NCBI GenBank assembly: GCA_029262115.1 | Contig: JAJCZZ010000072.1 | Span: 1 to 64,000, forward strand | DNA length: 64,000 nt | Reading direction: 5' to 3' | Origin: Gemmatimonadota bacterium | Lineage (GTDB): Bacteria > Gemmatimonadota > Gemmatimonadetes > Longimicrobiales > Gaopeijiaceae | Shown: piece after piece, positions 8,666 through 37,336 of the stretch | Layout of the letters: every line of letters begins with the position of its first letter | Position numbering within the stretch: the stretch's first letter is position 1 | Translations under genes and position numbers: made by a program | Notes under the pieces: generated by a model | The model's database searches: none | What the model was told of the DNA's origin: nothing | The model's input: the letters and a program-made list of their open reading frames with translations, nothing else

Positions 8666-8741
8666 GCACCTCGAGCACATCGACGCCCACAGCGGAGCGA
8701 CCTACTCGTAGTGGGGAGCCTCCTGGCCATCGGGTGAGCAC
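8633..8741. repeat. 37-bp direct repeat spanning a stop codon
   Basis: Positions 8633-8669, which include the last ~11 codons and TGA of the upstream gene, recur exactly at 8705-8741, 72 bp away. The second copy is non-coding. This looks like a recent local duplication of the gene end. A comparable duplication around a stop codon occurs at 48282-48347. Confidence 0.85.
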
Positions 8742-8807
8742 GACCGGACCGTCGTGGCTCCTTACGCCTTCGGCCCACGCCGCGTCGCCCCCACGACTGC
8801 GTCGCCG

Positions 8808-12475: not shown

Positions 12476-15400
12476 GTGAGGGTACGGCCGCGGGGCCTCG
12501 CCAGACTCCTCAATCTGAGGGAGGGCGAAGGGCGCCAGCTGTCGGTGCTCGGCAGTTACCTGCTGCTTACGACCGTGGTCACGACGGTCCTGTCCGCGTC
12601 CCAGAACGGTCTGTTTCTGTCCGTCTATCCGGGGAACTTGATTCCTCATGCCGTCATCGCGGCCGCCTTGGTCACCGCTGTCGTTGCGATCCTATTCGGC
12701 GGCGCGATATCGGGGACGGCCAGGCGCTCCTTGGCGCTCTGGCTGACGCTCGTGCTTGGGCTGAGTCTCGTCGCGAGTCGAACCGTCTTCGGATTGGCAC
12801 CGCGCTCGGCGTTCGTCCTGTACGTGTGGCTCTCCACCGTGCAGGTCCTGATCCTGACGCAGGCGTGGGACTACGTGGGCGACCTGCTCGCGGGACGGCA
12901 GGCCAAGCGCCTCATACCGCTCGTGGGCACCGGAGCCAGCGTCGGCGCCCTGCTCGGAGGAGCGGCCCTCGCTCCGGTCGTGCTCCTGATCGGGACCCCG
13001 AACCTTCTTCTGGTCGCGACGGTCCTGATGGGTATGTCCCTCCCACTCCTTTGGATGGTGCCCGAACCGGAGGAGATGGTGGACTCGGGCGAGGAGTCGC
13101 ATACGGGGCTCTCCGCCTTCGTCGACGCGACCTCGCTGGGAATGCGCAGTCTCGTCGGCCAACCACTCCTTCGGGTCATGGCGGTGTCGGCGCTCTTCTT
13201 CGCGCTGACCAGCACGCTCATCGAGCTCCAGTACAAGCTGGCGCTCCAGTCCAACTTCGAGCAGGACCAGATCACGGCGGTCTATGGGCTGATGACGGCC
13301 CTGGTGGGTGCGGGCACCCTCGTAGTGCAGTTGATGGCCTCGCGATACATCTTCCCGCGACTCGGCGTTTCCTTTGCGACGCGGATGCATGCCGGCCTCC
13401 TGGCCCTCGGTGCCGCCGGCGCCGCGGTCTTCTCTGGCTTTCTTGTTCGGGCGGCGCTCCAGGTCCTGGATGATGTCCTCCAGCACTCCCTCCAGAAGCC
13501 GGTCGAGCAGGTCTCGCTCCTTCCCTTCGCCGGCCGGGTCAAGAGCGCGTCGGCGGCAACGATCGGCGGGGTGGTGAAGCCCCTGTCGCAAGCGGCAGGG
13601 GGTCTGCTGGCGATCGCGCTTATCTCCCAGGGCCGCCTCCTGGCCTTCGCCACGGTCGCGACCGCCACGATGGCATTCGCGCTCCTGACCCGTCATCGCG
13701 GGCTGTACCTCGCGGCTCTGGAGAGCGCCCTTTCGCGGCACGCGGTGGACTTTCGAACCACTGATGACGTGCCGCTTCTTGCCGATCGCGAAGCGCTGTC
13801 CGTCCTGGATCGTGGCCTCGCCGATCCGGATCCGCTCGTCGTGGTCTTCTCCCTGTCTCTTCTGGAGAGAGTACCTGCCGATGACGCGCTCATCCGAGCC
13901 ATCCGACTTCTCGACCACGAGCAGGCGGAAGTGCGAGCGGAGGCTACCCGGATCGTTGGCCTCGTTGGCATGGACGCACCAGAAGAGGCGCATAAACTGC
14001 TGATTCAACGACTCTCCCACGAGTCGTCCCCGTTGGTTCTGGCGGCGCTACTCCGCAGTCTCGGCACCCTCGGTGCGGGTGGCTACGAACAGATACGGCC
14101 CTTCGAAACGACCGACGACCCTTCAGTCTGTCGGGAGGCTATTGCCGCGTCCGCGAGACTGGGGGCGACCGACATCGAGCAGCGTATGCGTGCTGACCTT
14201 CGCGGGGAGAACTCGGTGGATCGTGCGACCGCAGCCTGGGTGGTTGGCGAGCTTCGCGTGTCCCGCCTCATGGGCGACGTGGCCGCCGCCGTCGACGACG
14301 ATGCCGCCCGACCGGAGGCTCTACGCTCACTCAGGCGACTCGGGGAGGCCGCGGTACCCATCCTGTCGGGACTGATGGAGCGCAGAGCCCTTCCCCTGCC
14401 AGTTCGCCGAAGTCTGGTCACGACGCTCGCCGAGATCCCGCATCCTTCCGCACGTCAGGCCCTCCTTCGCCTCGTCGAGGAACCCGCCCTGGGCCCGCCA
14501 GCCCTGCACTCCCTGAGACGCCTGCGCAGCGAGGGTGTGCTGGACCCAGTCGATCCGAAACGGATCCGCCCGCTGCTCGAGGGGGAAATGCGACGTGGCT
14601 TTCGGTACGGCCTGGTGTCGCGAGCACTAGCGGACCGGCCCGGCGAATCGCAGCGCTTCATCTCCGAGGAACTCGACGGGCTCCGGCGCAGAGCGGTCTA
14701 CCGCGCGTTGCGTCTGCTCGCGCTGACCCACGATCCGACCTTGCTCGATACGGTGCAACGAGCGTTGTTCTCTCCGGCGGCGCGCGACAAGAGCAACGCC
14801 ATCGAACTTCTGGAGGGCACCCTCGCGCACGACGATGCGGCTCTGGTCGTTCCGCTCGCGGAGACGGAGATCGACGGTGTCACCTATGCCGCTGCGGTGC
14901 TGGCCCTCCCCGAAGCCTCCGAGCTCGAGAAACACCCGTTGGAAGGGCTTCTTGCAGACCAAGATTGGTGGCCGCGCGCTCTGGCGCTCCATGGCCTCGG
15001 CAGGCACGACGAGATTTCGGTCCCGGGTCGCGAACCCAGGCACTCCCAGGAGGAAGCAGGCATGATTCCGCTCATCGAACGCGTCATGATTCTCAAGGGC
15101 AGTCAGCTCTTTCGCTACTTCCCGGGAAACGACCTGGCGGGGATCGCCTCCCTGGCCGAGGTCGTCCACCTCGAGGACGACGAAGTCGTGTTCGAGCAAG
15201 GCGATGTAGGAGACGCCTTCTACATGGTCGTACGCGGCGGAATCCGAATCAGCCGCGGGAGCACGGAACTGGCCCTGCTCGGTCCGAGAGAAGGCTTCGG
15301 CGAGATGGCGATCCTCGATCAGGAGACGCGCTCGGCGACCGCCTCGGCCGCCGAGGCGACCACGCTCCTCCGTATCGACCGAGATTCGTTCGACCGCCTG

Positions 15401-15490
15401 GTCGAGCAGAACCCGTCCGTTGCGCGTGGCATCTATCGGATGCTGACCAAACGGCTGCGTAACACCCTCGCGCAAGTCGCCGCAGGGTAA
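12476..15490 (+). CDS. ATP/ADP-translocase-like protein with HEAT repeats and cNMP domain
   Basis: A 1004-residue fusion. Residues ~25-425 form about 12 membrane helices resembling the Npt1/Npt2 nucleotide-transporter group of the MFS (QAWDYVGDLLAGRQAKRLIP is the most family-like block). Residues ~440-850 are HEAT-like helical repeats (for example VVFSLSLLERVPADDALIRA). Residues ~880-1000 are a cyclic-nucleotide-binding fold (EVVFEQGDVGDAFYMVVRGG and FGEMAILDQETRSATASA, where the usual Gly-Glu pair and the cNMP arginine are recognisable). Such fusions are seen in environmental bacteria, where the membrane part is probably not an energy-parasite ATP importer. The cNMP domain suggests nucleotide-gated control. 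GTG 12476 is the first start after the DUF481 stop. Confidence 0.8.
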   Translation: MRVRPRGLARLLNLREGEGRQLSVLGSYLLLTTVVTTVLSASQNGLFLSVYPGNLIPHAVIAAALVTAVVAILFGGAISGTARRSLALWLTLVLGLSLVASRTVFGLAPRSAFVLYVWLSTVQVLILTQAWDYVGDLLAGRQAKRLIPLVGTGASVGALLGGAALAPVVLLIGTPNLLLVATVLMGMSLPLLWMVPEPEEMVDSGEESHTGLSAFVDATSLGMRSLVGQPLLRVMAVSALFFALTSTLIELQYKLALQSNFEQDQITAVYGLMTALVGAGTLVVQLMASRYIFPRLGVSFATRMHAGLLALGAAGAAVFSGFLVRAALQVLDDVLQHSLQKPVEQVSLLPFAGRVKSASAATIGGVVKPLSQAAGGLLAIALISQGRLLAFATVATATMAFALLTRHRGLYLAALESALSRHAVDFRTTDDVPLLADREALSVLDRGLADPDPLVVVFSLSLLERVPADDALIRAIRLLDHEQAEVRAEATRIVGLVGMDAPEEAHKLLIQRLSHESSPLVLAALLRSLGTLGAGGYEQIRPFETTDDPSVCREAIAASARLGATDIEQRMRADLRGENSVDRATAAWVVGELRVSRLMGDVAAAVDDDAARPEALRSLRRLGEAAVPILSGLMERRALPLPVRRSLVTTLAEIPHPSARQALLRLVEEPALGPPALHSLRRLRSEGVLDPVDPKRIRPLLEGEMRRGFRYGLVSRALADRPGESQRFISEELDGLRRRAVYRALRLLALTHDPTLLDTVQRALFSPAARDKSNAIELLEGTLAHDDAALVVPLAETEIDGVTYAAAVLALPEASELEKHPLEGLLADQDWWPRALALHGLGRHDEISVPGREPRHSQEEAGMIPLIERVMILKGSQLFRYFPGNDLAGIASLAEVVHLEDDEVVFEQGDVGDAFYMVVRGGIRISRGSTELALLGPREGFGEMAILDQETRSATASAAEATTLLRIDRDSFDRLVEQNPSVARGIYRMLTKRLRNTLAQVAAG

Positions 15491-15501: not shown

Positions 15502-19311
<3,810 letters not shown>

Positions 19312-21550
19312 GCGAAGGCTGTTGGCCACCACGCTGACCGAGCTGGCCGCCATGGCGACCGCGGCGAGAATCGGGTGGAGGGAGCGAAGCATGTCCGGGA
19401 CCCAGTCGAGCGGGTAGAGGACACCCGCCGCCACCGGGATGAGCACGACGTTGTAGGCGAACGCCCACACGAGATTCTGACGGATCGTCCTCATGGTCGC
19501 CTTCGAGAGCGCCAGGGCCTCCGGCACGGACCGGAGGTCGCCGCGCATGAGCGTGACGTCGGCGGCCTCGATGGCCACGTCGGTCCCGGTCCCGAGGGCC
19601 ACACCGACGTCAGCCTGGGCGAGAGCGGGCGCGTCGTTGATACCGTCGCCGACCATCGCAACGCGCAGTCCTTCCGCCTGCAACGACGATACAGCGGCGG
19701 CTTTCTGGTCGGGAAGCACCTCCGCCATCACCTCGTCGATCCCGACCTCCCTCGCGACCGCGTCGGCCACCGTGCGGTTGTCCCCGGTGAGCATCACGAC
19801 CCGCACTCCGCGGCCGCGGAGGGAACGCACCGCCTCGGCGGACCCCTCCTTCACCTCGTCCGCGACACCGACCAGACCCACCACCACTCCCGCTTCGGCG
19901 ACCCAGAGCACCGTCCAGGCACGCGCTTCCATGGTGGTCGCGGCATCCGTCAGACCGCTGGGATCGACGCCCTGCTCCTCCATCATTCGACGGCTCCCGA
20001 CGAGCACCGGCTGGCCCGCTCGCTCCGCCGAGACCCCTCTCCCGGGGGTCGCGGAGAAGCCCGAGGCAGGTTCTGCGGAAATGCCCCGGTCCCGGGCACC
20101 TGCCACCACCGCTCGCGCCAGCGGATGCTCGCTGTTGATCTCCACCGCGGCGGCAATGGTCAGGACCACGGCCTCGGATGACCCGGTCGCGAAGGCGATC
20201 TCGCGAACCACCGGAGCGCCCGCCGTGACCGTCCCCGTCTTGTCCAGCACAACGACGTCGACGTCCTCGGAGGACTCGAGCGCCTCCGAGTTCCTGAACA
20301 GGATCCCACGTGCCGCGCCCCGTCCCGTTCCAACCATGACGGCCGTTGGGGTGGCCAGGCCGAGCGCACACGGACAGGCGATCACGAGAACCGCCACGAG
20401 CCGAATGATGGCCGGGGTGAAGCCGGCCCCGACCACGAGCCACCACACCAGAAACGTGATGACCGCCAGGACGAGCACGATCGGAACGAACCAACTCGCC
20501 ACCCGGTCGGCCAGTCGCTGAATCGGTGCTTTGCTGCCCTGGGCCTGCTCCACCATGTGGACGATGCGCGCCAGCGCCGTATCCGCGCCCACCTGTGTGG
20601 CCCGAACGCGCAACACGCCGTGGGCGTTGATCGTGGCCCCGGCCACCTCGTCACCCGGCGACCGCTCCACCGGCATGCTCTCGCCGGTCAGCATGCTCTC
20701 GTCCACGGCTGAGTGTCCCTCGGTCACGACGCCGTCCACCGGAATCCGCTCTCCTGGCCGCACGAGGACGACATCGCCGACGACCACCTCGGAGAGGGGC
20801 ACGAGCACTTCGCCCGAATCGCGAAGGACCGTCGCGGTGTCGGGCTGGAGCTTCATCAACTCCCGGATGGCCGCGGACGCCTGCCCTTTGGCCTTCGTCT
20901 CCAGCAGCTTCCCGAGCTTGATCAAGGTGATGATCAGCGCGGCGGTCTCGAAATATACGTGGTCGCCGACGGCGGACGACCCCGTGGTGAGCACCACGGT
21001 GACGACGACGGAGTAGACGAACGCCACCGTCGACCCCAGGGCCACCAGAACGTCCATGTTCGCGGCGCCATTTCGGAGTGCCTTCCACCCACCGACGTAG
21101 TAGTCCCACCCGACGTAGAACTGCACGGGGGCCGCCAGCACGAGCATGAGCCAATTCACCCATGGGGCGTGCGCCCACGGCCCGATGAGACCGAAGTCGC
21201 GCGCCATGCTCAGGACGAACAGCGGGAGCGAGAACGCCGCGCCGACGAGGAAGGCGCGCCGCTGGTGCGCTAGCTCGGCGGCCCGGGCGGTGGCCTCGGA
21301 ATCGCCCCCATCTCCGGCGGACGTCCGCACCACACCGTAGCCGACACGCTCGACCGCGCGGATCAGATCGTCCACGTCCACCTCGGAATCGAGTTCGACC
21401 GTGGCTCGCTCCGTGGCGTAGTTCACGGCCGCGCTGCGCACGCCGTCCGACTTCTTCAGCGTACGCTCGATGGTGGCCGCGCAATTCGCGCACGTCATCC
21501 CGGTGATGGGGAGCGTGATTTCCGTGAGCACCTGGTCGGTCATGCTCGCA

Positions 21551-21760
21551 TCATCCCTTCGGCGGGTACCCGATGTCGCTCATCTCCTTCTCGATGGCCA
21601 CCCAATCGGTGGCCTCGGGATCCCAGGAGATCACAACCTCCCTGGTTTTCGCGTCACCCTTCACGGAAGCGACGCCGTTCGCTTCGGCGACCTCGCGCTG
21701 GATGGTGTTCACGCAGTGCCCGCACGAGATGTTGGGTACTGTCACGGTCTTCTCTTCCAT
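21551..21760 (-). CDS. copZ: CopZ-like copper chaperone
   Basis: A 69-residue heavy-metal-associated domain. ATG 21760 is chosen because the longer frame encodes a basic, non-conserved extension overlapping csoR. The metal site is the CxxC pair C13 and C16 in [15 protein letters not shown], and the rest follows the beta-alpha-beta ferredoxin-like pattern to a C-terminal GYPP. The protein likely delivers Cu(I) to the CopA N-terminal domain or to CsoR in the cytoplasm. It is located between csoR and copA. Confidence 0.9.
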
Positions 21761-21813
21761 GTCCGATTCTCCTGAGTGTGCAGTTGTGGCGGCGCGCACC
21801 GCACCGTGCGGCT

Positions 21814-22092
21814 CTACGCCTTCCCTGTCGCCTCGAAAACCTCCATGAGCTCGCGCAGGACGCGCTCCTTGGCGGCGTCGTCGGAGCCGCGAACGGCGTG
21901 GGTCACACATGAGTGCAAGTGGTGATCCAGCACCGCGGCGCTCACCTTCTTGAGGGCCCGCTGCACCGCCAGGATCTGGTTCACCACATCCACGCAGTAC
22001 GCACCTTCTTCGACCATGCGTTCGATGCCCCGAACGTGACCCTCCACGCTCTTCAGCCGTCTGACGATGCTCGTCGTGCGTTCATCCGCCAT
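21814..22092 (-). CDS. csoR: CsoR-family copper-sensing repressor
   Basis: A 92-residue four-helix repressor of the CsoR/RcnR family (RRLKSVEGHVRGIERMVEEG, LDHHLHSCVTHAV). Ligand residues C33, H58 and C62 have the exact 25- and 4-residue spacing of Cu(I)-binding CsoR, which distinguishes it from the nickel sensor RcnR. It is first in the csoR-copZ-copA operon, and a GC-rich palindromic operator lies about 40-70 bp upstream, so autorepression released by Cu(I) is expected. No formaldehyde-detoxification gene is present, arguing against an FrmR role. Confidence 0.93.
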   Translation of the reverse strand: MADERTTSIVRRLKSVEGHVRGIERMVEEGAYCVDVVNQILAVQRALKKVSAAVLDHHLHSCVTHAVRGSDDAAKERVLRELMEVFEATGKA

Positions 22093-23183: not shown

Positions 23184-23855
23184 ATGCCAACCTACTTCAC
23201 GAAGTCCACATTCGCCTTCCTGCGCGACCTGGCGAAGAACAACGACCGGACGTGGTTCGACGCCAACCGAGATCGGTACGAAGAGCATGTGAAGAGGCCG
23301 GCGCTCGACTTCATCCAGGAGATGGCACCCCGCCTCGCGACGCTTTCGCCCCACTTCCACGCGGGCCCGCGCTCTCTGTTCCGGATTCACCGGGATGTGC
23401 GCTTCAGCAAGGACAAGCGCCCGTACAAGACGACCATCGGCATCCAGTTCCGCCACGACGCCGGCCGGGACGCGCACGCACCGGGCTACTACCTGCACAT
23501 CGAACCGGGAGGCTCTTTTGCCGGGCTGGGGATGTGGCATCCGGACGGCCCCGCCCTGCGGAAGGTCCGCGACCGGATGGTCGAAGCGCCCGAGCTGTGG
23601 CATGACGCCGTGCAGCATCGGCCGTTCCAGGACGCCTTCGAACTCGAGGGCGACGCGTTGAAGCGCGCACCACGGGGATACGACCCGGAGCACCCACTGA
23701 TCGAGGATCTGAAGCGAAAGGACTTCATCGGCGGGCGGAAGGTCCCGAACGCCTTCGTTCAGGACCCCGAACTACCGGATCAGTTGACCGCGCTGTTCGC
23801 CGCCGGCACTCCGTTCATGCGCTTTCTGTGCGAGGCGGTCGGCGTAGAGTTCTGA
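23184..23855 (+). CDS. DUF2461 family protein
   Basis: A 223-residue cytoplasmic protein of the DUF2461/TIGR02453 family: an N-terminal FLRDLAKNNDRTWFDANRDR, a central FRIHRDVRFSKDKRPYKTTI and GYYLHIEPGGSFAGLGMWHP. Length and motif order are typical. ATG 23184 follows a CACGGAG ribosome-binding site. The function of the family is unknown. The last 41 bp overlap the convergent glycosyltransferase gene. It is 46 bp from pdxH and probably co-transcribed. Confidence 0.85.
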   Translation: MPTYFTKSTFAFLRDLAKNNDRTWFDANRDRYEEHVKRPALDFIQEMAPRLATLSPHFHAGPRSLFRIHRDVRFSKDKRPYKTTIGIQFRHDAGRDAHAPGYYLHIEPGGSFAGLGMWHPDGPALRKVRDRMVEAPELWHDAVQHRPFQDAFELEGDALKRAPRGYDPEHPLIEDLKRKDFIGGRKVPNAFVQDPELPDQLTALFAAGTPFMRFLCEAVGVEF

Positions 23856-25098
23856 GAACGATCTCGGCGACCGCTTCGGCGCCGGTGGGTCCGTCCGAGG
23901 TGGAGGACCGGCCGGCCGGTCCATCGGAAGCGGGAACAGGGCCCGGGCCGAGCGGTTCGTCCAAGCCGGAAGCCGGGGTCCAGCCGAGTGGCACGACCGA
24001 CCCGGACCCCCGGCCGACCGGTGCGAGCGCAAGCAGCTCGTCCACGCGCTCCAACCACCCACCGCCGGCAAAATCGGCCGCCGGAACCGCAAAGCCGGGG
24101 ACGTTGCGCTCCGCCCACGCGTCCAAAGCCGGCATCTCCCGGAAATCGTCGCGCGTGATCCTTGCCAGCGGCTTACCAGCGGACCACACCTCCGCGAGCG
24201 TGCTGTAGCCGAGCTTCGCGACGACCGCGTCGGCCGCCCCGACGAGGTCCGGCATATACAGGCGGGTGTCCCGATCAAAGGCCCGAACGGTTCCCTCCGA
24301 ACGGGTGGCGGGCGCCCCCGTGACGATGAAATGGACCGGGGCGAGACCCGGCAGGCGGCCGAGGAACGGGAGCGCCTGGTCGACGCCCCCCATCGTGAGC
24401 ACCACCGTCGGTGCGTCCAGTGGGATCGAGAGTTCGCGTCGGACCTCCTCGCGACTTCGGCATACGGGGCGGCAGACCGGCGGCACCGGGGCCGCCGCCG
24501 GAGTCGGCTCGCAGAACGGCGTCGCCTGGATGTGCACGGTGGCCCGGGAGAACCAGCGCTCGAGCGTCGCCGCGTGGGCCGCGAGCCCGGGCGCTTCGGT
24601 CAACAGCGGTTCGTAGAGCCACGGCCAGATGAAGTTCTCCACGAGGATCGAGGGCACACCCGCCCGCTCGGCCACGGCCACGCCCAGCGGCGAGATGTCG
24701 CACAGCACGGCTCCACACCGCGCCGCTGACACCTTCGCCGACAGCGCCTCGACCAGCGCGGGATCGAACGGGAGGAAGCGGTCCAGCGCACGGACGGTCC
24801 CGTCCAAATCGAAGGCCAGGGCGTCGCGCTGGCGAAAGCCGACGTCGGTCTCTACCTGATGGAGGACGTAGCGACCGGCCACAGCTTCGTCGAAGAACCA
24901 GCGCGGCGTGGTGGCGAAGAGTTGGAACGGCTCGGTGACGTGCGGCGCCAGGGCACGCATCACCGCCGAAGCCCGCGCGGCGTGCCCGAAGCCGTGCGGC
25001 GACACGAAGACGGCCAGCGGCGCGGTCGGCGCAGGGGTCGCCAAAGCGGTCGGCGAAGATTTCAGCGCGTCACCTGCGCTCGAAGTACCAGAGTCCAC
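23815..25098 (-). CDS. Glycosyltransferase, UGT/MurG-like GT-B fold
   Basis: About 427 residues with the GT-B hallmarks: an N-terminal VFVSPHGFGHAARASAVMRA glycine/histidine loop and a C-terminal nucleotide-sugar half with VLTMGG and KLGYSTLAEVWSAGKPLARI. There is no signal peptide, so it acts in the cytoplasm or at the membrane face. The start is uncertain. GTG 25098 has GGGGGA seven bases upstream and overlaps the FG-GAP gene by 29 bp; TTG 25044 is the alternative. The C-terminus carries a Pro/Gly/Ser-rich stretch (~residues 370-405) of low complexity. It is last in an operon of exported beta-propeller proteins, so it may glycosylate a surface product, but donor and acceptor are unknown. 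Confidence 0.78.
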   Translation of the reverse strand: MDSGTSSAGDALKSSPTALATPAPTAPLAVFVSPHGFGHAARASAVMRALAPHVTEPFQLFATTPRWFFDEAVAGRYVLHQVETDVGFRQRDALAFDLDGTVRALDRFLPFDPALVEALSAKVSAARCGAVLCDISPLGVAVAERAGVPSILVENFIWPWLYEPLLTEAPGLAAHAATLERWFSRATVHIQATPFCEPTPAAAPVPPVCRPVCRSREEVRRELSIPLDAPTVVLTMGGVDQALPFLGRLPGLAPVHFIVTGAPATRSEGTVRAFDRDTRLYMPDLVGAADAVVAKLGYSTLAEVWSAGKPLARITRDDFREMPALDAWAERNVPGFAVPAADFAGGGWLERVDELLALAPVGRGSGSVVPLGWTPASGLDEPLGPGPVPASDGPAGRSSTSDGPTGAEAVAEIVLRTLRRPPRTESA

Positions 25099-26950
25099 CG
25101 CCGGTTCCCCCGAGCACAAGGTCGCGGTCACCGTCACCGTCGAAGTCACCGAACGCCGGTGCGGACAGGCCGAAGTCCGGGACGCCGAACGGGCGGGCGT
25201 CCGCATCGAACGCGGCCCGCTGCGGGCTCCCTCGGTTGAGGTACAGTTGAAGCCCGCTCGACTCACTGCCGACCACGAGGTCCAGGTCGCCGTCGGCGTC
25301 GACGTCCTCGAGCAGCGGCACGCTGCGCCGGCCGGCATCGATACCCGCGTACTCCTCGGAGACGAGCGTGAAGCGAGGCGACGCCGACGAGCCGTCGTTT
25401 CGATAGAAGTTGAGGGCTCCGGACGATTCGCCGACCACCAGGTCGAGATCGCCGTCGGCGTCCAGGTCGCCGAGAGTGGGGGTCGCGTTCCGGCCGCGGC
25501 CGAGCACCACCACGGCCGAGTCGGTCAGCGCGAGCCTCACCCCCGCCCCATTGCCCTCGTTCGTGTACAGCCGAAGCACGTCGCCCCAGGTGCCGACCAC
25601 CGCGTCGAGGTCACCGTCGGCGTCCAGATCACCGAACGCCGGGGCGAAGTGATACCCGTTCGCCACCTCGTCCAGCGTGCCGTCCCAGGCCAGGCTCGGC
25701 GCCGAGGGTGTACCCCGGTTCATGAAGCGATGCAGCTTGCCGTTCTGCGGATCGTCCTGGGTGATCTTGTTTCCGACCAGAAGGTCGAGCGTGCCGTTTC
25801 CGTCGAGATCCACCACCGCGGGATAGCTCTCGCTGCCGACGTCGATGGTGGAGATCACACGCGCGCTCCGGTCGTGGAAGACGCCGGGCCGCTCCTGTTC
25901 GAGATAGTGGAAGTTGTCCCGCGTGGTCGTGTTCGGATTGAACGCACCGCCGAGCACGCCGACCACGAGGTCGTTGTCCCCGTCCCCATCGACGTCACCT
26001 ACCGTGGGCGCATTGTACCCGCTGGTCTTGAGCGGTGCGTTCGCTGGGAACGGACGGGGCTCTCCGCGCAGCGACGGCCGCTCGCACGTGCCGGTGTTCT
26101 CGATGAAGAGAAGACCCGCTTCGAAGTAGTCGCCCCAGAAGATGTCGATGTCGCCGTCGGCGTCCACGTCGCCGAGCGCCATCGTGTTGGCCCCGTGGAG
26201 GCTGCCCATCTGAGCCACGATCTCGATGTCCTCGAAGCGATGGGTGATCAGCCGAAAGCGCGGCAGGCCGTCCGGGCCGGGCACGTCCTCCTCGTACCGG
26301 GAGATCGTGCCTTCCAGCCGCCCGATCAGAAGGTCCATCCGACCGTCGCAGTCCAGATCGGCCGCGTTGGGAATGTTCTGCCGATCGGAGAACAGAGGCT
26401 CTCCGGAGGCGTTCCGCAGCGTATCCGTCGCGAGGACGAAGTCGGGCGATGTGGCACTCCCCTCGTTTCGGTAGTAACGGATATAGCTGAACAGCTCCTC
26501 GGCCAGGAGGTCGTAGTCGCCATCGGAGTCCATGTCCACGAAGCGGAACCACTCCCCGACGTCGAGCTCCCGGTACCGGTCGGTCCGCCACCGCCACCCG
26601 GCGGGCGCTCCTCCCTCGTTCTCGAAGAACATGACCGAGTTAGACGCCTCCTGGACGAACAGGTCCACGTCTCCGTCCGCGTCGATGTCGACGAGCTGCG
26701 GCCGCGGCAGATTGAAGCCGCCCAGGAACGGATGCCCGTGTTCCGTTCCGTCCGGGCCCAGTACCGGAAACGGCGTCACTCGACGGGTCCAAACGGCCTG
26801 GGCGAGCGGCGCGTCCTGCTCGGGTGCGGCGGCCTCGCGGACGCTCCTTGCTCCGGCGGGCACCCCCGTCTGTGCACCCGAGGACCCGCATCCGAGGGAG
26901 GCCAGTGACACGAGGCCGAGCCCGAACCCCCACCGTCCGGTTCGACTCAC
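25070..26950 (-). CDS. FG-GAP/VCBS repeat lipoprotein
   Basis: A 626-residue exported protein. GTG 26950 overlaps the upstream stop (GTGA) and starts a lipoprotein signal with lipobox LASLGC. The body is at least nine FG-GAP/VCBS repeats carrying calcium-binding DxDxDGxxD loops (for example DIDADGDVDLFV, DLDADGDLDAVVG, DFDGDGDRDLVLGG), which fold as an integrin-like seven-bladed propeller. Ca2+ binding and surface attachment are expected from the family. The partner is unknown. It is third in the operon and overlaps both neighbours, which suggests the four products are made in fixed proportion. Confidence 0.88.
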   Translation of the reverse strand: MSRTGRWGFGLGLVSLASLGCGSSGAQTGVPAGARSVREAAAPEQDAPLAQAVWTRRVTPFPVLGPDGTEHGHPFLGGFNLPRPQLVDIDADGDVDLFVQEASNSVMFFENEGGAPAGWRWRTDRYRELDVGEWFRFVDMDSDGDYDLLAEELFSYIRYYRNEGSATSPDFVLATDTLRNASGEPLFSDRQNIPNAADLDCDGRMDLLIGRLEGTISRYEEDVPGPDGLPRFRLITHRFEDIEIVAQMGSLHGANTMALGDVDADGDIDIFWGDYFEAGLLFIENTGTCERPSLRGEPRPFPANAPLKTSGYNAPTVGDVDGDGDNDLVVGVLGGAFNPNTTTRDNFHYLEQERPGVFHDRSARVISTIDVGSESYPAVVDLDGNGTLDLLVGNKITQDDPQNGKLHRFMNRGTPSAPSLAWDGTLDEVANGYHFAPAFGDLDADGDLDAVVGTWGDVLRLYTNEGNGAGVRLALTDSAVVVLGRGRNATPTLGDLDADGDLDLVVGESSGALNFYRNDGSSASPRFTLVSEEYAGIDAGRRSVPLLEDVDADGDLDLVVGSESSGLQLYLNRGSPQRAAFDADARPFGVPDFGLSAPAFGDFDGDGDRDLVLGGTGGGLWYFERR

Positions 26951-28035
26951 CGGCGCCTGGCCACCGCAGCAGGTCCGGCAGGACCGGCCATCCCAGCGGC
27001 ATACGCGCCGACCAGCACGACGTCAAGCACCCGTCGGGAGGCTCGCTCGATAACGACCACCGTGCCGTCACCTCCCCCACCGTACCCGCTCTTGACGTTG
27101 TGGCCCGACACGAAGACCAGGCGTCCGTCCGGACTGATGGCGCTTCCGTGCGGCTCCGCGAGTCCGGGGTGCTCCACCACGCCCGCGACCGACCAGTCGG
27201 TCGTACGCACCACGGACACCGTGCCGGCTTCCTGCTGGGGTACCCAGAGCTCCGAACCGTCGGGTGAGAAGCTGGGGTGCCAGGGCTGCCCACCGACCGC
27301 CAACCGCGTGTGTAGCGCCGGACCCGCGTCCGTCAGCTCCCACACGACCAGCTCTCCGCTCATCTGCCCGCCGCCGACCATCCAGCGCCCGTCCGGAGAC
27401 ACGGCCAACTGTACCATCATGTGATGGGGCCCGGGGATGTCGGAGAGGGATGCCTCCTCCTCGCCGAGCGGGACCACTGCGAGGCGGTTCTCGCCGAGGC
27501 TGCTCGTGTAGACCGACCCACCCGCCTGGTCGATGGTGAGCGCATGTGGCCGCGGGAAGAAGACGTCGATCTCCTCCAGCGCCATGGTCGAGCGGTGGAT
27601 CATTCCAATCCGATGCGGAGGATTGACCGCCGCCATCGACCGGCCGACATAGAGCAGGTCGCTCCCGGGGTCCAGCGCGAGCATCCCCGGCGTCTCGAAG
27701 TCCGCCTCCGCCACCACGCGGTTGTCGCGGTCCAGCTTGAGGATCTTCCCATCGGCGATGAGCGAGACGTACCAGTACGATCCGTCCGGCTCCACGGCCA
27801 CATGGTGCGCCTTGGCCGTCGGACTGTATCCGAGCGCCGTGAGGTCGACGGTCTCCAGATGCCGACCCGACGTCATGTCGAAGACGGCGACGGATACGGC
27901 CGTCTGGCTGGCGACGTAGAGCCGCGGGCCGTCCGCGGCGTTCGGATCGCCGACCCCTGGCCCGCCCGCACACGCGAGCGAGGCCAGGAGTCCCGCCAAG
28001 AGCACCTTGTGTGCCGCCGACGAGCGGCGAGGCAT
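26947..28035 (-). CDS. YncE-like beta-propeller lipoprotein
   Basis: A 362-residue exported protein. ATG 28035 shares its A with the upstream TGA (TGATG), and the leader ends in the lipobox-like LASLAC. The repeats match the YncE/surface-antigen seven-bladed propeller (RLYVASQTAVSVAVFDMTSG, SPDGRWMVGG, SPDGSELWVPQQEAGTVSVV, SPDGRLVFVSGH). Such proteins bind surface or DNA ligands in other bacteria; here the ligand is unknown. It lies inside the overlapping operon between the choice-of-anchor-B and FG-GAP genes. A C-terminal Arg-rich tail (AAVARRR) is unusual for an exported propeller. Confidence 0.82.
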   Translation of the reverse strand: MPRRSSAAHKVLLAGLLASLACAGGPGVGDPNAADGPRLYVASQTAVSVAVFDMTSGRHLETVDLTALGYSPTAKAHHVAVEPDGSYWYVSLIADGKILKLDRDNRVVAEADFETPGMLALDPGSDLLYVGRSMAAVNPPHRIGMIHRSTMALEEIDVFFPRPHALTIDQAGGSVYTSSLGENRLAVVPLGEEEASLSDIPGPHHMMVQLAVSPDGRWMVGGGQMSGELVVWELTDAGPALHTRLAVGGQPWHPSFSPDGSELWVPQQEAGTVSVVRTTDWSVAGVVEHPGLAEPHGSAISPDGRLVFVSGHNVKSGYGGGGDGTVVVIERASRRVLDVVLVGAYAAGMAGPAGPAAVARRR

Positions 28036-30392
28036 CACGGAATCAGATTGCGATCGCGGGGACGCAGGAGGAAGAGCCCCTCGCGGCCACTCGTCACGAC
28101 CACGATGCCGCTCTCGAAGAACGGGTAGTTCGACCACGACCCGTTGAAGCCGGGCGCGTCCTCTCCGTACGGCACCGTGTCGAAGTACCCCACCTGGACG
28201 GGATTCTCCGGATCGGAGACGTCGAGAATGCGCAGGCCGCTCACGTAGTTCGACTGATACATCGTGTTGCCCACGACATACAGGTTGTGATCGCTCGACT
28301 GGTTGTCGGAGAAGTGCTCCTTGGCCAGGATCGGGTCGTCGAGGTCCGTCAGGTCCCACACGAGCGTACGCGTGTTCTCGACAAGACCACCCGTCTCGTC
28401 GAGCTCGTCGTTCATGAAGAAGTAGCGGTGATCCTCGCTCAGCCAACCCTGGTGCGAGTAGCCGACGTTCGGGTAGGTGGCCATCGCGACCGCCACCGGG
28501 GCGGACTTGTCCGTGACATCCGCAATGGACAGCGCCGTTTCGTTCGAGCCGAGGCAGATCTCGCTGCCCTGGTAGTCCGGATCCGGCCCGCGGTACGACA
28601 CGCACTGGGCGTCGTGGGAGTAGCCGGTCCGGGAGCGCCCCGTTGTGGGATCCTGGAAGCACCCCGAGAACGTCGGGCTCCCGGGGGTGCGGATGTCGAT
28701 CATATGAAGCCCGCCGCCGCACGTCTCACCACCGCCGCTGGCTCCCACGGCGTAGGCGAAGCCGGTCTCCTCGTTGATGACGATGTTGTGCGCCGAGGCG
28801 ATCCGGTCGTAGACGACGTCCGGTCCGAACGTGGGGGGCTCGGACCCGTCCAGGCCACGGAGCCTGGAGAGGTCGAAGACCTGCATCCCGTGGGCACCGG
28901 CGCCGTCCGCGACCACGTAGGTGTGGCCCTCGTAGACCTTCATGTCCCGCCACGTACTCGGCCTCGCGCCTTCGGTCAACGGCATGCGCGCGAGGTAGAC
29001 GGGCTGGTACGGGTTGGACACATCCACAAACGCGGTCTGGTCCGTCATGCCGACGATGGCGATGTCACGGCCGGTTTCCGGATCCGTCCATCCCCATACG
29101 TCGTTGACGCGGACGCCCCGGCCCGCGCCGAGCTCGCCCACCGGCAGGAACGACAGCATGTCGACGTCGCTGCAGTCGAACATGGCGGCCGCACCCTCGT
29201 CCGAGCACACTACTTCGTCCCCGGTAATGGAGGCCACGGGCGCGACGTCGCTCACGAGGCGGACGCCACGACCCCACTCGTCGCCACTGCGCGACATGAC
29301 AAAGGCAGCGCCCGCGCCGTAGTCCTGACCAAGCGCGGAGACGACGGCGAGATCGCCCGCTACCGCCACCCGTGAACCGAAGGCGTCGTTCCCGCTGACG
29401 CCGTCGGCGCCGAGCAACCGAGCGAGTGTCCAGGCGCCTTCTGCGTCGCGACGGTAGGCGAACGCCGTCCCGGCACCGGGCGCCGCAATGATCAACTCGT
29501 CACCGGCCAGCGCCACGTCCGAGCCGAATTGTGTGCCCGGTCCGGCCTGGAACGGAAGCAGGAGAGAGCTGAGCGTGAAGCCGTTCTGGCTCTCGTCGAA
29601 GGTGTACTCGACCACGGAGCCGACGGCGAGAAGTCCAGGAGCGCCCACGTAGGCCCGCCCGCCTTCGAGCGCGAGGCCCTGGCCGGCACCGCCCTGGGGC
29701 TGCCCGAGTTCCGCGCCCAGAACGCCGGCGGCCGTCCACGCGTCCGTGGCGGCGTCGTAGCGATACGCGTAGACGACGCCGGCACCGTCGTTCTTCGCGG
29801 GTGCGCTCACGAGGGCCCATCCATCGTCCATCACGATCCGCGAACCGTACCGGTCGGCCGTCATGAGATCGCCGGGCACGAGCGTGGAGTGCTCCATCCA
29901 GCCATCGCCCTGACGCCGGAACGCGTAGACGGCGCCTCGCCCGCCGTTCTTCGCAATCGAACTGATGAGAGCCCAGTCACCGTCGAGGGCGAGCCCGGTT
30001 CCGAGCGAGTCCGCGGGGCCGTGATCCGACGGGTTCAGTTGCCCGACCGAGCGCCAGCCGTCGCCGGTCCGGCGGAAGTGATACACCGCCCCGGAGCCCC
30101 CGTCCGCACGGGTCGCGGAGATGAGAAGGTCGTCGCCCGCTCCCGTCGAACTGATCCCGAACCGGTCGCCCGGCGTCCCGTCCGGTGCCTCGAGCGACTC
30201 CCTGAGGTGCCACCCGTCGCCCTGCTCGTGAAACACGTACAGGAGCCCCGAACGGAGCTCGTGATGAGGCTCTCCGACCATGACCTCATTCCCCACCACC
30301 GTCGTGGAGGAGCCGAAGCCGACCTGGGCGGCGCCCGTCGACGGGGCGAGGGCCACACCCGCGACGAATGCACACAGTGCGTACCGATTCAT
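28035..30392 (-). CDS. Choice-of-anchor-B family protein with LVIVD repeats
   Basis: A 785-residue exported protein starting at ATG 30392 (signal RYALCAFVAGVALAPSTGAA). The N-terminal ~400 residues are FG-GAP-like repeats of the form GDxxGDRFGxxxxxxGDxLLI. The C-terminal half matches the TIGR04312 choice-of-anchor-B family, with LVIVD-type blades (IAIVGMTDQTAFVDVSNPYQ, SGLRILDVSDPENPVQVGYF), a HNIVINEETGFAYAVG block and conserved cysteines. This family is recognised for varied surface-anchoring strategies; no sorting tail is obvious here. It is the first gene of the four-gene operon. The divergent DUF5916 gene shares the 171-bp promoter region. Confidence 0.88.
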   Translation of the reverse strand: MNRYALCAFVAGVALAPSTGAAQVGFGSSTTVVGNEVMVGEPHHELRSGLLYVFHEQGDGWHLRESLEAPDGTPGDRFGISSTGAGDDLLISATRADGGSGAVYHFRRTGDGWRSVGQLNPSDHGPADSLGTGLALDGDWALISSIAKNGGRGAVYAFRRQGDGWMEHSTLVPGDLMTADRYGSRIVMDDGWALVSAPAKNDGAGVVYAYRYDAATDAWTAAGVLGAELGQPQGGAGQGLALEGGRAYVGAPGLLAVGSVVEYTFDESQNGFTLSSLLLPFQAGPGTQFGSDVALAGDELIIAAPGAGTAFAYRRDAEGAWTLARLLGADGVSGNDAFGSRVAVAGDLAVVSALGQDYGAGAAFVMSRSGDEWGRGVRLVSDVAPVASITGDEVVCSDEGAAAMFDCSDVDMLSFLPVGELGAGRGVRVNDVWGWTDPETGRDIAIVGMTDQTAFVDVSNPYQPVYLARMPLTEGARPSTWRDMKVYEGHTYVVADGAGAHGMQVFDLSRLRGLDGSEPPTFGPDVVYDRIASAHNIVINEETGFAYAVGASGGGETCGGGLHMIDIRTPGSPTFSGCFQDPTTGRSRTGYSHDAQCVSYRGPDPDYQGSEICLGSNETALSIADVTDKSAPVAVAMATYPNVGYSHQGWLSEDHRYFFMNDELDETGGLVENTRTLVWDLTDLDDPILAKEHFSDNQSSDHNLYVVGNTMYQSNYVSGLRILDVSDPENPVQVGYFDTVPYGEDAPGFNGSWSNYPFFESGIVVVTSGREGLFLLRPRDRNLIP

Positions 30393-30526
30393 GATCGCTC
30401 GTTGTCTTGTGGAATTCCATTCGGGTTCAGACGACCGGCTCACATACCACGGCGGACGCGGTCGGGGTCCATGACGGCACTTCCTTACACGGGGAACCTT
30501 CCGATCCATGTCAACTATAAATCTAG

Positions 30527-30542
30527 TACTATTGCGATAGTA
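30527..30542. promoter_or_regulatory. Operator-like dyad TACTAT-N4-ATAGTA
   Basis: A perfect 6-bp inverted repeat around TGCG in the divergent spacer between the choice-of-anchor-B operon and the DUF5916 gene, 22 bp before the DUF5916 start codon. An AT-rich ACTATAAATC lies just upstream. A near-identical 16-mer (13 of 16 bases) occurs at 49583-49598 before the metalloprotease gene. The size and symmetry suit a winged-helix repressor of the PadR or BlaI kind; the regulator is not in this window. Confidence 0.6.
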
Positions 30543-30563
30543 AACTGCACTGGGGAGGTTGGG

Positions 30564-32894
30564 ATGGGTGGAACGAGATGCGTCGGCGTTCTCGCGTGCG
30601 TGGTGGTCCTGGCGGGTGCGATCCCACCTACTGGTGGCTCGGCACAGACGAGCAGGTCAGCCCGGGTCGAGGGCGATCTCGTCGAGGAGGCGACGACCAG
30701 GCGCCAGTACCCGATCCGCGTCGCTCCAGCTCGGATCCAGGTGGACGGCGTCCTCGACGATGCCGGATGGGACGGCGCGCTGGGCGTCGAGCTCCCCCAC
30801 GAGGTCCGACCCGCCGAGAACGGTACGGCACGCGTGACCACCGCGTGTCGCATGACGTACGACGCCGACGCCCTCTACATCGGATGCGAGGCCGCCGACC
30901 CGGACCCTGGCCGCATCCGCGCCTACGTGGCTGATCGCGACGGGATCGACGGCCATGACCGGGTGGTCGTGACATTGGACCCCTTCAACGACCAGCGCCG
31001 CGCGTTCCAGTTCGGAATCTCCGCGCTCGGCGTTCAGTACGACGCCGTCATGGCCCAGCAGGGCGTGGGCGGGCGCGACGACGGACCGGACGCGCAGCCG
31101 GTCGATCCGTCCTGGGACGCCATCTGGGACTCGTCCGGGCGAATCACGGACGAAGGCTACGTGGTCGAGGCCGCGATCCCCTTCTCGGCGCTTCGGTTCC
31201 CAACGCCCGCGGGCCCGGCCACCTGGGGGGTGTACGTGTCGAGGTGGTGGCCCCGGAGTACGGACACCGAGTTGCGGTCGGTGCCGTGGGATCGTTCGAA
31301 TTCCTGCGAGCTCTGCCAGGCCGGGGAGATGACCGGGCTGGAAGGGATCACGCCCGGAGCCAACATCCAACTGACGCCGACGCTCACGACCTCTCGGACC
31401 GATCGCCGGCCCGCGGACGGAGGCGCCCTCACGACCGGGGACACCGATGCATCCCCCGGAATGGATGCCCAGTGGGGCGTCACGTCGAATCTCACGCTGA
31501 ACGTGACCGCGAACCCGGACTTCTCGCAGGTCGAAGCGGACGTGGCCCAACTCGACGTGAACAACCGGTTCGCGCTGTTCTTCCCCGAGAAGCGACCCTT
31601 CTTCCTGGAGGGTGCGGACTTCTTCGGAACGCCGATTCAGGCGGTGTTCACACGTGCCATCTCCGATCCCATCGCGGGCGCCAAGGTCACCGGAAAGGTC
31701 GGCGACCATGCCGTGGGAGCCCTCGTGGCCCGTGACGCCGTGACCAACCTCCTCATGCCCGGGGCCGAGTTCAGCCGGAGCACCAGCCTGGACGCCTCAT
31801 CCACGACCGCCGTCGCGCGGCTGCGCACGGACATCGGTGCGTCATCGACGGTCGGGGGCCTCTTCACGAGCCGGGACGCGCGCGGATACCACAACCGCGT
31901 CGGCGGCTTCGACGCGTTCTATCGCCCGCGGTCGTCCGTGACGCTCCAGGCCCAGGCGCTCCGGAGCGACACGCGCTATCCCGACGCCGTGGCCTCCGCG
32001 TTCGACCAGCCCACCGATGCGTTCGGCGGCAACGCCTTCAGCGTTCAGGCCGACTGGACCACCCGCAACTGGATGGCGAACGCGTCCGCGTCACGAACGG
32101 ACGAGGGTTTCCGCGCGGACGCGGGCTTCGTGAGTCAGAGCGGCCGTCAGGGTGGCAACGCGAACGTGCGTCGCCGGTGGTGGGGCGGCTCGGATCGCTG
32201 GTTCTCCCAAATCCGCGCACAGGTCGGGACCTGGCACAACCGCGACTTCTTAGGCAACCAGCTCGACGGCGGCATGTGGATGGGCCTGGAGTACTTCGGG
32301 CCCGGCCAGACACACGTCGGGATATGGCCGAACCTGTTCATGAAACAGTATTTCGCCGGCACGGAATTTACCGGGATTACCCAGCTCTTCTTCAACGCGT
32401 CCGCGGCGCCGGTCGGGGCGCTGAGCGTCAACTTCGGAGGTGACTGGGGCGACCAGGTGGACCAGGCCAACGCGCGACTCGGACGCCAGTTGACGCTGCG
32501 GCCGCGCGTAAGCCTGCGCCTCGGCCGGAAAACCGATCTGAGCCTCCAATACTCCCATCAGCGGATGACGCGCGACGGCGGCACCGTCTTCGGCGCCGAC
32601 CTCACGCAGCTCCGCGCCGTGTACAACTTCAGCGTCCGCTCCTACCTGCGCGCGGTCGTCCAGTACCGGGACACCGAACGGGACGCCGCGCTGTACACGA
32701 GGCCGATCAGCGAGCGATCCCGCACCCTGTTCACGCAGCTCCTATACTCGTACAAGCTCAACCCTCAGACGGTGCTGTTCGCGGGATACTCCGACGATCG
32801 TGACGGCCTGATCGACGCCCAGGGACGGGATGTGCCCCTGCGCCCGCTGGGGCGGACGTTCTTCCTCAAGCTGGGCTACGCCTTCCGGCCGTGA
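30564..32894 (+). CDS. CBM9-like/DUF5916 outer-membrane protein
   Basis: A 776-residue exported protein. ATG 30564 follows GGGGAGG and starts a signal peptide (VLACVVVLAGAIPPTGG, then SAQ). Residues ~45-240 are the family-9 carbohydrate-binding-like domain (IRVAPARIQVDGVLDDAGWD, FQFGISALGVQYDAVMAQQG). The rest is the DUF5916 barrel (LNVTANPDFSQVEADVAQLD, then NNRFALFFPEKRPFFLEG, and a beta-rich C-terminus ending GYAFRP). DUF5916 proteins are abundant in Gemmatimonadota and Bacteroidota and are thought to be outer-membrane proteins linked to polymer or peptide use. It is divergent from the propeller operon, so a shared function is plausible but unproven. Confidence 0.9.
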   Translation: MGGTRCVGVLACVVVLAGAIPPTGGSAQTSRSARVEGDLVEEATTRRQYPIRVAPARIQVDGVLDDAGWDGALGVELPHEVRPAENGTARVTTACRMTYDADALYIGCEAADPDPGRIRAYVADRDGIDGHDRVVVTLDPFNDQRRAFQFGISALGVQYDAVMAQQGVGGRDDGPDAQPVDPSWDAIWDSSGRITDEGYVVEAAIPFSALRFPTPAGPATWGVYVSRWWPRSTDTELRSVPWDRSNSCELCQAGEMTGLEGITPGANIQLTPTLTTSRTDRRPADGGALTTGDTDASPGMDAQWGVTSNLTLNVTANPDFSQVEADVAQLDVNNRFALFFPEKRPFFLEGADFFGTPIQAVFTRAISDPIAGAKVTGKVGDHAVGALVARDAVTNLLMPGAEFSRSTSLDASSTTAVARLRTDIGASSTVGGLFTSRDARGYHNRVGGFDAFYRPRSSVTLQAQALRSDTRYPDAVASAFDQPTDAFGGNAFSVQADWTTRNWMANASASRTDEGFRADAGFVSQSGRQGGNANVRRRWWGGSDRWFSQIRAQVGTWHNRDFLGNQLDGGMWMGLEYFGPGQTHVGIWPNLFMKQYFAGTEFTGITQLFFNASAAPVGALSVNFGGDWGDQVDQANARLGRQLTLRPRVSLRLGRKTDLSLQYSHQRMTRDGGTVFGADLTQLRAVYNFSVRSYLRAVVQYRDTERDAALYTRPISERSRTLFTQLLYSYKLNPQTVLFAGYSDDRDGLIDAQGRDVPLRPLGRTFFLKLGYAFRP

Positions 32895-35575: not shown

Positions 35576-37336
35576 ATGATTGATATCGAACAAGAATCGC
35601 TCTTCACTGAGGTTGCTCTTCCGAGAGCACCGGCGATTTCTGAAGCAGTGGAGCTTCTACGCACTTCCGGCGGTGTCGAGGAGCGTGGCGCTGTCTTCAC
35701 AGCAACGGAGATCGTCCACGCGATTCTCGACCTGTGCGAGTATGTGCCCGAGGCAGAGCTGGTCCAGAAGAGGTTGCTTGAGCCCTCGTTTGGTGGGGGG
35801 GACTTCCTACTTCCGGCCGTTGAGCGTCTCCTTGCCTCAGTATCGAGTCGAGGGGAGACTCTGTCATCAGCCCTTCCGGAGCTTGCCGGGTGTATCCGCG
35901 CTGTAGAGTTGCATCGGCTGACGTTTGAGGAAACCCGCAAGAAATTGTACGCGCTCCTCGTCGGCGCGGGCCTTCACAGGACGCAAGCCTATCAGCTTCT
36001 GGACGCGTGGTTGATCAACGATGACTACCTGCTTCAGGAAGGCCTCGGTGAGTTCGACGCGGTGGTAGGTAATCCGCCGTACGTTCGACAGGAGCGGATC
36101 CCGAATGTCCTGCTGAGCGCGTACCGCGAGCGTTTCCACACGTTCGTTAACCGGGCGGATCTATATGTGCTGTTTTATGAGAAGGGACTACTGTCGCTCT
36201 CGGATGGCGGACGGCTCGGCTACATCTGCGCCAACCGCTGGGTGCGGAATCAATACGGCGGCGCACTCCGCTCTTTGATCGGCAAGCATTTTCATCTGGA
36301 GTATTTTGTGGACCTTGAGCGCGCCAATGCGTTCAAGTCATCCGTGATCGCGTATCCAGCGATCACGGTGGTCCGGAAGTCGCCTCAAACATCGACGGTC
36401 TTGGCGGTGGGCATGCGCGATTCTGCCGACGGACTGACAGATCTAGTGCCTCGATTGAAGCGGGGTGCGGTGGACAAGAGCACGCTTGAGGCCGGGATCT
36501 CACGCGTCAATGTCGTTCGATCGAGCCGAGAGCCGTGGCTTCTGGACGCACCTGGGATTGTCGCTCACCTGCGGGATCTAGAGGAGCGTTTCCCTGGCCT
36601 GGAAGAGGCTGGGGCACGGGTAACCATTGGTGTGGCTACGGGTGCGGACCGTGTGTTTATCGCACCGTTCGACGAGCTGCCAGTCGAAGACTCCCGAAAG
36701 CTCCGACTCGCCATGGCCTCTGACTGCAGGAATGGACGAGTCGAATGGGGTGGATTCGGAGTTGTGAACCCATTCATGGCGGACGGTAGCTTGGCGCCAC
36801 TCGATGACTTCCCACGGTTCCGCACCTATCTCGAAGGGCATGAGTCGGTCCTGCGGGCTCGGCACGTCGGCAAGAAGAACCCAACGCGTTGGTATAAGAC
36901 GATCGACCGGGTCTATCCCGACCTTACAACGACTCCGAAGCTTCTAATTCCAGACATCAAGGGAGACGCTGCGATTACGTTCGACCCCGGGGATTACTAT
37001 CCACACCACAACCTGTACGTCGTCACAGGCACCTCCTGGGACATTCAAGCCCTACGGACATTGTTGCGTTCGTCCTTGGCCCTGGCCTTCGTAGCCGCAT
37101 ACTCGCCGCGCATGTCGGGAGGTTTCATGCGTTTTCAGGCACAGTACCTCCGCCGCATCAGGTGCCCTCATTGGGCGTCTCTTTCCGACGGGAATAGGGA
37201 GCTGTTGATCGGAGCCGCGTCGAAGGAAGCTGCCGAATGTGACGCAGCGGTTTTTGAGGCGCTCGGCATCAAGTCGCCAGCTGCAAAGTCACTGAAACTG
37301 TTTGCGGAGAACTCGAGAGTTGGGGGGAGTGACTAG
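35576..37336 (+). CDS. N6-adenine DNA methyltransferase (type II, Eco57I/PaeR7I-like)
   Basis: A 586-residue modification enzyme. Motif I is LLEPSFGGGDFLLPAVERLL (about residues 70-88), the catalytic NPPY is at about residues 166-169 (VVGNPPYVRQERI), and the C-terminal half is a TaqI-like target-recognition region (NPTRWYKTIDRVYPDL, FRAQYLRRI-like ending). Length and domain order fit the methylases paired with PaeR7I/XhoI-type endonucleases, so m6A modification of CTCGAG is the expected specificity. Its TAG stop overlaps the endonuclease GTG by one base. Both flanks contain pieces of a propeller gene on the opposite strand, so the cassette was probably acquired. Confidence 0.9.
   Translation: MIDIEQESLFTEVALPRAPAISEAVELLRTSGGVEERGAVFTATEIVHAILDLCEYVPEAELVQKRLLEPSFGGGDFLLPAVERLLASVSSRGETLSSALPELAGCIRAVELHRLTFEETRKKLYALLVGAGLHRTQAYQLLDAWLINDDYLLQEGLGEFDAVVGNPPYVRQERIPNVLLSAYRERFHTFVNRADLYVLFYEKGLLSLSDGGRLGYICANRWVRNQYGGALRSLIGKHFHLEYFVDLERANAFKSSVIAYPAITVVRKSPQTSTVLAVGMRDSADGLTDLVPRLKRGAVDKSTLEAGISRVNVVRSSREPWLLDAPGIVAHLRDLEERFPGLEEAGARVTIGVATGADRVFIAPFDELPVEDSRKLRLAMASDCRNGRVEWGGFGVVNPFMADGSLAPLDDFPRFRTYLEGHESVLRARHVGKKNPTRWYKTIDRVYPDLTTTPKLLIPDIKGDAAITFDPGDYYPHHNLYVVTGTSWDIQALRTLLRSSLALAFVAAYSPRMSGGFMRFQAQYLRRIRCPHWASLSDGNRELLIGAASKEAAECDAAVFEALGIKSPAAKSLKLFAENSRVGGSD

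Follow-up and report, generated by a model that had tools for sequence, protein, structure and literature searches.

A co-inherited module of three exported propeller proteins in Gemmatimonadota and the probable relationship of one of them to the TCM1 phosphotriesterase

The genes for three exported propeller proteins, a choice-of-anchor-B protein (CAB), a YncE-like propeller, and an FG-GAP repeat lipoprotein, constitute one co-inherited module, encoded on the same strand and mostly in a fixed order. We encountered this module in a 64,000-nucleotide stretch, hereafter the window, of a Gemmatimonadota genome of 5.45 Mb in 110 contigs. The initial annotation of the window knew of no described system with this set of genes and, as far as the literature searched extends, the three-propeller module is indeed undescribed. 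At a rough probability of 0.45, we favor a surface enzyme system in which a secreted, probably metal-dependent CAB hydrolase would work with two lipid-anchored partner propellers.

Recognizing the module turns three separately annotated propellers of obscure role into one testable unit. It also provides the choice-of-anchor-B family, for which the literature searched describes no function, with a concrete hypothesis, namely a metal site with named residues. Finally, it suggests where in nature an enzyme that has been known to date from the degradation of man-made organophosphates might have originated.

Gene organization and domain assignments

The genes considered here occupy positions 23815-32894 of the window (Table 1). 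Domain scores bear out the identities originally given to the three propellers and to the DUF5916/CBM9 gene opposite them. CAB scored 420.8 bits against TIGR04312 (choice-of-anchor B), well above the cut-off of 100, and 107.3 bits against PF14312 (FG-GAP_2), above the Pfam gathering score; LVIVD repeats scored 25.7 bits. This exported protein comprises two domains: N-terminal integrin-like FG-GAP_2 repeats and a C-terminal choice-of-anchor-B propeller. The YncE-like protein matched PF10282 (Lactonase) at 31.5 bits (gathering score 21.7) and PD40 above its cut-off; against the YncE equivalog NF052280 it reached only 25.6 bits (cut-off 400). The FG-GAP protein scored 141.8 bits against PF13517 (FG-GAP_3), above the gathering score, and the DUF5916 gene scored 51.5 bits against PF19313 (gathering score 22.6) and 32.4 bits against PF06452/CBM9_1 (gathering score 23.4). 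The identification of the fourth minus-strand gene as a GT-B glycosyltransferase (GT) is based on a match to PF13528 below threshold (11.0 bits, gathering score 25, E = 0.24) together with a reading of its motifs.

Table 1. Features of the module and its surroundings in the window.
Feature	Coordinates	Strand	Basis and remarks
CAB (choice-of-anchor-B protein)	28035..30392	-	ATG 30392; stop ends 28035; signal peptide by eye
CAB C-terminal propeller domain, residues 385-785	28038..29240	-	AlphaFold2, PDB profile search, Foldseek, hhalign, conservation
YncE-like seven-bladed propeller, probable lipoprotein	26947..28035	-	Cys 22 after LLASLA; Lactonase/PD40; pLDDT 90.0; orthologs
FG-GAP repeat lipoprotein	25070..26950	-	GTG start 26950; PF13517; orthologs 46-64% identical
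Putative GT-B-like glycosyltransferase (GT)	23815..25098 (or 25044)	-	Sub-threshold PF13528 and motif reading
CBM9/DUF5916 gene, divergent	30564..32894	+	PF19313, PF06452; ATG 30564
Divergent intergenic region, 171 bases	30393..30563		A+T-rich towards 30500-30560

The gene overlaps reported in the initial annotation are present. Specifically, the ATG of the YncE-like gene at 28035 shares one base with the CAB stop (TGATG), and the GTG of the FG-GAP gene at 26950 overlaps the YncE-like stop by four bases (GTGA). GT may start at GTG 25098, which is preceded by a GGGGGA stretch and falls within the FG-GAP gene, or at TTG 25044; a further candidate, the GTGA at the FG-GAP stop, was rejected as its frame closes after three codons. 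At its other end, GT overlaps a convergent DUF2461 gene tail to tail by 41 bases (23815-23855). A scan of the region yielded two terminator-like sites, the first within CAB and the second past GT, which is about the number expected from shuffled sequence. None was found between the four minus-strand genes, so a single transcript carrying all four is plausible. With the DUF5916 gene starting at ATG 30564, a gap of 171 bases separates it from CAB. This gap likely contains the promoter of the trio, and its sequence revealed no sigma-70 consensus.

Co-inheritance of CAB, YncE-like, and FG-GAP genes

We scored the three genes in 150 genomes drawn from the phylum, taking as strong matches at least 386 bits for YncE, at least 541 bits for the best piece of FG-GAP, and E ≤ 1e-60 for CAB. 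Strong YncE and FG-GAP orthologs occurred in an identical set of 45 genomes (Fisher's exact test, 2e-39, a value that ignores shared ancestry). CAB was present in all 45 and in four more genomes without strong YncE or FG-GAP matches (G131, G159, G072, and G110). Six of the 150 genomes had weak YncE matches only (112-125 bits) and were left out of the count. Because the three genes share the same 45 of 150 genomes, functional coupling of the three exported propellers is supported. In a set of 59 relatives, which includes the host genome itself and overlaps the 150-genome draw, strong matches were found in 26 genomes for YncE, 25 for FG-GAP, and 27 for CAB. The whole trio was present in 24 of these genomes, at least one member in 27, and none in 32, the incomplete cases being G003, G004, and G023.

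Gene order was similarly regular. Of the 45 phylum genomes, 41 had YncE immediately upstream of FG-GAP, 39 had CAB immediately upstream of YncE, and 37 had the complete order CAB-YncE-FG-GAP. The four genomes without YncE immediately upstream of FG-GAP had it at a contig end (G027 and G037) or elsewhere (G015 and G163, of one genus). YncE was separated from FG-GAP-CAB in G015, G163, and G031, and the order was YncE-FG-GAP-CAB in G140 and G097. In one further genome, G123, the FG-GAP match came in two pieces (C1:242365-244278), possibly reflecting an internal insertion.

Beyond this draw, 80 loci were fetched with the FG-GAP profile, Gemmatimonadota included. The order CAB-YncE-FG-GAP was found in 20 of them and YncE-FG-GAP in a further 9; the other 51 were mostly weaker, generic FG-GAP relatives. 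Outside the phylum, the module occurred in Rhodothermales, Salinivenus, Fodinibius/Aliifodinibius, Bacteroidetes, and one Acidobacteria MAG, with the proviso that MAG names may be misassigned. Since the three-gene order recurs across phyla, among them Rhodothermota and Balneolota, it reflects more than chance. Variant arrangements included FG-GAP-CAB-YncE in an Ignavibacteriaceae locus (L086) and FG-GAP-CAB in locus L100. In a Calditrichia locus (L083) and a Marinimicrobia locus (L090), the order was YncE-cytochrome-FG-GAP, the intervening gene encoding a cytochrome c554-like multiheme protein (8457-9959 and 5282-6709, respectively).

Two other candidate features of the module were rejected. 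The four-base YncE/FG-GAP overlap occurred in 13 of the 43 rows for which a distance was available, with two of these 13 (L038 and L067) apparently stemming from one contig, and CAB and YncE overlapped in no locus other than the window, L036, and L041; gene overlap is not a conserved signal of coupling. Neither did we retain additional partner genes: a DUF1232 protein and an Atg22-like MFS transporter were found downstream only in some Gemmatimonadota.

The number of CAB copies was more variable. Genomes with the YncE/FG-GAP pair carried from one to at least 12 copies (median 3), and 33 of the 45 had more than one, while YncE and FG-GAP were usually single-copy beside the multiple CAB matches. 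This excess of CAB over the pair argues against one fixed set; it fits an arrangement in which one shared partner pair would serve several CAB proteins. Alternatively, individual CAB paralogs could function on their own. In the three genomes inspected (G025, G022, and G005, read by eye with a simple ORF caller), the paralogs had mixed or unrelated neighborhoods.

The glycosyltransferase and DUF5916 genes

The distribution of the two remaining genes was different. GT matches were found in 4 of the 59 relatives, namely the window, its congener G001, G014, and G020. Adjacency to the trio was limited to the window and G001, with GT following FG-GAP in the latter; G014 and G020 carry the GT match without strong YncE, FG-GAP, or CAB matches. 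Among the 80 wider loci, the GT query gave no match above 50 bits. A DUF5916 gene adjoined CAB in none of the loci of 28 relatives and in none of the 80 wider loci. In addition, no signal peptide was seen by eye on GT, so direct glycosylation of the exported partners by this enzyme is unlikely, as judged from its sequence.

These results bear on the reading proposed initially, in which the four gene products would form a surface complex, the encoded GT would glycosylate its subunits or substrate, and DUF5916 would be a linked, divergent partner. The compact arrangement here and in G001 is consistent with such a complex. Its distribution nevertheless leads us to reject a four-gene unit with GT and DUF5916, both the coupling of GT to the trio and the linkage of DUF5916 falling away, and the proposed glycosylation finds no support in a GT that appears to lack an export signal. 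Overall, we consider the glycosylated four-gene complex very improbable. Rare co-occurrence, which the initial annotation had named as the observation that would count against its proposal, was thus found for the four genes but not for CAB, YncE-like, and FG-GAP. We take GT and the DUF5916 barrel to be local neighbors, present by chance or through recent addition, and not members of the conserved module.

Probable relationship of the CAB C-terminal domain to the TCM1 phosphotriesterase

The C-terminal domain of CAB is predicted to be a seven-bladed propeller (AlphaFold2 pLDDT 93.3). In an alignment of 46 CAB sequences, four of which are at 28-36% identity, D431, W433, D483, H535, N536, H647, W650, E663, H702, N703, and W753 were invariant and H593 was nearly so (full-length numbering, equal to the alignment number plus 384). 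In the AlphaFold2 model, most of the conserved residues lie where the inner strands begin, in one blade after another. Propeller enzymes frequently have their active site in this position.

The CAB profile matched only 5hrm and 5ioj, structures of the Sphingobium TCM1 phosphotriesterase (haloalkylphosphorus hydrolase), among 177,635 PDB sequences. Using Foldseek, 5hrm was also the best match of the C-terminal domain (E = 1.6e-12; next protein, 2.4e-9), with approximately 15% identity over the fold. Alignment of CAB with a plasmid-borne TCM1-type homolog using hhalign gave 97.3% (E = 1.8e-11, 313 colinear columns), versus 41% for CAB and the YncE-like protein. Nevertheless, the YncE-like protein and the TCM1-type enzyme gave 93.7%, indicating that propellers in general score well. 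With VIA-align, CAB matched generic WD40 propellers at Z of about 30, and 5hrm was absent among the 50 matches listed. Like the C-terminal domain of CAB, the TCM1 enzyme has seven blades and is LVIVD-like, and these comparisons of sequences and models make it likely that the two are related.

The TCM1 structure paper reportedly announces, in its title, a binuclear metal center in a seven-bladed propeller. We take the metal ligands to be E201, H258, H389, E407, and H475; the plasmid-borne homolog has E, H, H, E, and H at these positions. Based on this assumed numbering, H535 of CAB aligned exactly with H258, and E663 with E407, using hhalign and three MAFFT modes. The other three of the five presumed ligands were not exactly aligned: with MAFFT, H647 was displaced from H389 by 4 positions and H702 from H475 by 9, and D483 and E201 were unaligned. 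The conserved histidines of CAB do start the strands corresponding to H389 and H475. A metal site common to CAB and the TCM1 enzyme is accordingly offered here as plausible, on alignment and model together, while enzymatic activity of CAB would be a guess.

A further difference concerns genomic context, as no YncE or FG-GAP gene is named beside the TCM1 enzyme in the one plasmid region considered. The enzyme has been described as recently evolved for flame retardants (PMC11656708). The choice-of-anchor-B family appears to be named only: the literature searched contained no papers using the term, and none linking two of "choice-of-anchor", "FG-GAP", and "YncE", or linking phosphotriesterase with LVIVD. 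A broader search at the level of the phylum returned nothing relevant.

The YncE-like and FG-GAP partners

Many YncE and FG-GAP orthologs carry a lipobox, according to a survey in which starts were assigned by a crude rule that gave a wrong internal start for the YncE-like protein of the window and artefact values in a few rows. Across 54 YncE sequences, H77 and H164 were invariant. In seven of the 54 rows, a cytochrome c domain bearing a heme motif was found at the N terminus, ahead of the propeller, six recognized by pattern and the seventh (L088) by a CSACH motif and a PSCyt1 match. In three more the domain was degenerate, and in the remaining 44, including the copy in the window, none was detectable.

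The best structural match of the YncE-like model was an archaeal surface-layer propeller (Z 39.6, rmsd 1.7, 290 residues). The corresponding entry, 1l0q, which is grouped here with YncE/YVTN propellers, was the best match of the YncE-like protein in both fold and sequence; the YncE-like protein differs from that group in its score below the equivalog cut-off and in the cytochrome c domain of some orthologs. The model also aligned by fold with nitrous-oxide reductase (N2OR; Z 34.8, rmsd 2.8, 316 residues) and thiocyanate dehydrogenase (Z 33.6, rmsd 3.5, 320 residues), in the range of 310-320 residues. As these two alignments extend over more residues than most other matches, a redox role is kept among the possibilities. 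The cytochrome cd1 propeller likewise appeared in the Foldseek and profile lists. The YncE-like protein scored far below the cut-off of NF052460 (L-NosZ, clade III nitrous-oxide reductase; 38.9 versus 700 bits).

The best PDB relative of the FG-GAP protein was CRTAC1. FG-GAP propellers of CRTAC1 and integrin alpha matched both this lipoprotein and the N-terminal domain of CAB, although the similarity is weak and at the level of repeats. Many positions beyond the repeat motif were invariant among orthologs of the FG-GAP protein, a pattern suggestive of an interface or a site.

Possible functions of the module

From these data, we infer catalysis by CAB, its substrate, and a physical complex with the YncE-like and FG-GAP proteins. 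On the reading that we favor, the three proteins would constitute, or supply, an enzyme system at the cell surface. CAB would be secreted and would bear, at the mouth of the central channel of its C-terminal propeller, a metal site built like the binuclear site of TCM1, with which it would hydrolyze an extracellular ester, a phosphate ester being the likeliest candidate. Its constant partners would be the YncE-like and FG-GAP proteins, both lipid-anchored, which would dock or supply one or several CAB proteins. Any electron-transfer role of YncE would be either ancestral or gained in the cytochrome c-bearing lineages, the copy in the window having no cytochrome domain.

Two other accounts deserve weight, each of them unlikely at present. 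One is a redox system in which the YncE-like protein, originally linked to cytochrome c, would be the catalytic or electron-transfer subunit, as in N2OR, thiocyanate dehydrogenase, and cytochrome cd1, with CAB and FG-GAP as its partners. The heme-motif domains, intact in seven orthologs and degenerate in three, the multiheme gene in L083 and L090, the alignments with N2OR and thiocyanate dehydrogenase, and the invariance of H77 and H164 all point this way. Against it stand the 44 orthologs without a detectable cytochrome domain, the L-NosZ score, the surface-layer protein as top structural match, and the small number of invariant histidines, presumably fewer than an N2OR-type copper cluster needs. 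The other account, to which we attach similar doubt, dispenses with catalysis: the three propellers would form an adhesion or binding complex at the surface, like integrin alpha or the surface propellers of Bacteroides, with conserved residues that are structural or bind a ligand. Such a complex would explain the FG-GAP or integrin-type repeats in two of the proteins, the lipoprotein and secretion signals (assigned partly by eye), and the resemblance of the YncE-like model to surface-layer and B12-binding propellers. It accounts less readily for the set of His, Asp, Glu, and Trp residues kept in 46 CAB sequences, which exceeds what maintenance of the fold would need, and for the fact that the specific relative of the CAB C-terminal domain is an enzyme, TCM1.

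The favored surface enzyme system can be extended, more speculatively still, to an extracellular metalloenzyme system of the FCB group. Interchangeable secreted CAB hydrolases, ancient relatives of TCM1, would then share one lipid-anchored pair of propellers, with YncE coupled to cytochrome c in some lineages; we regard this broader proposal as doubtful. If true, hydrolysis and electron transfer would be combined in one surface system, and the TCM1 enzyme would gain a natural parent family.

Other genes in the window

Several further genes of the window were noted. A copper-type heavy-metal P-type ATPase (19276-21543, minus strand) has a CopZ-like HMA protein directly upstream (21551-21910, minus strand); this pair lies close to the trio here and was not seen among its conserved neighbors. 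On the plus strand, 12476-15490 encodes a protein of 1004 residues whose C-terminal part matches cyclic-nucleotide-binding regulators, and a large hybrid histidine kinase follows (15502-19311). The product of 35576-37336 (plus strand) shows weak similarity, far under cut-offs, to BREX adenine methyltransferases (PglX). Finally, 41511-45743 (plus strand) encodes a 1410-residue fusion with matches to a TolB-like propeller and to amidohydrolase-type proteins.
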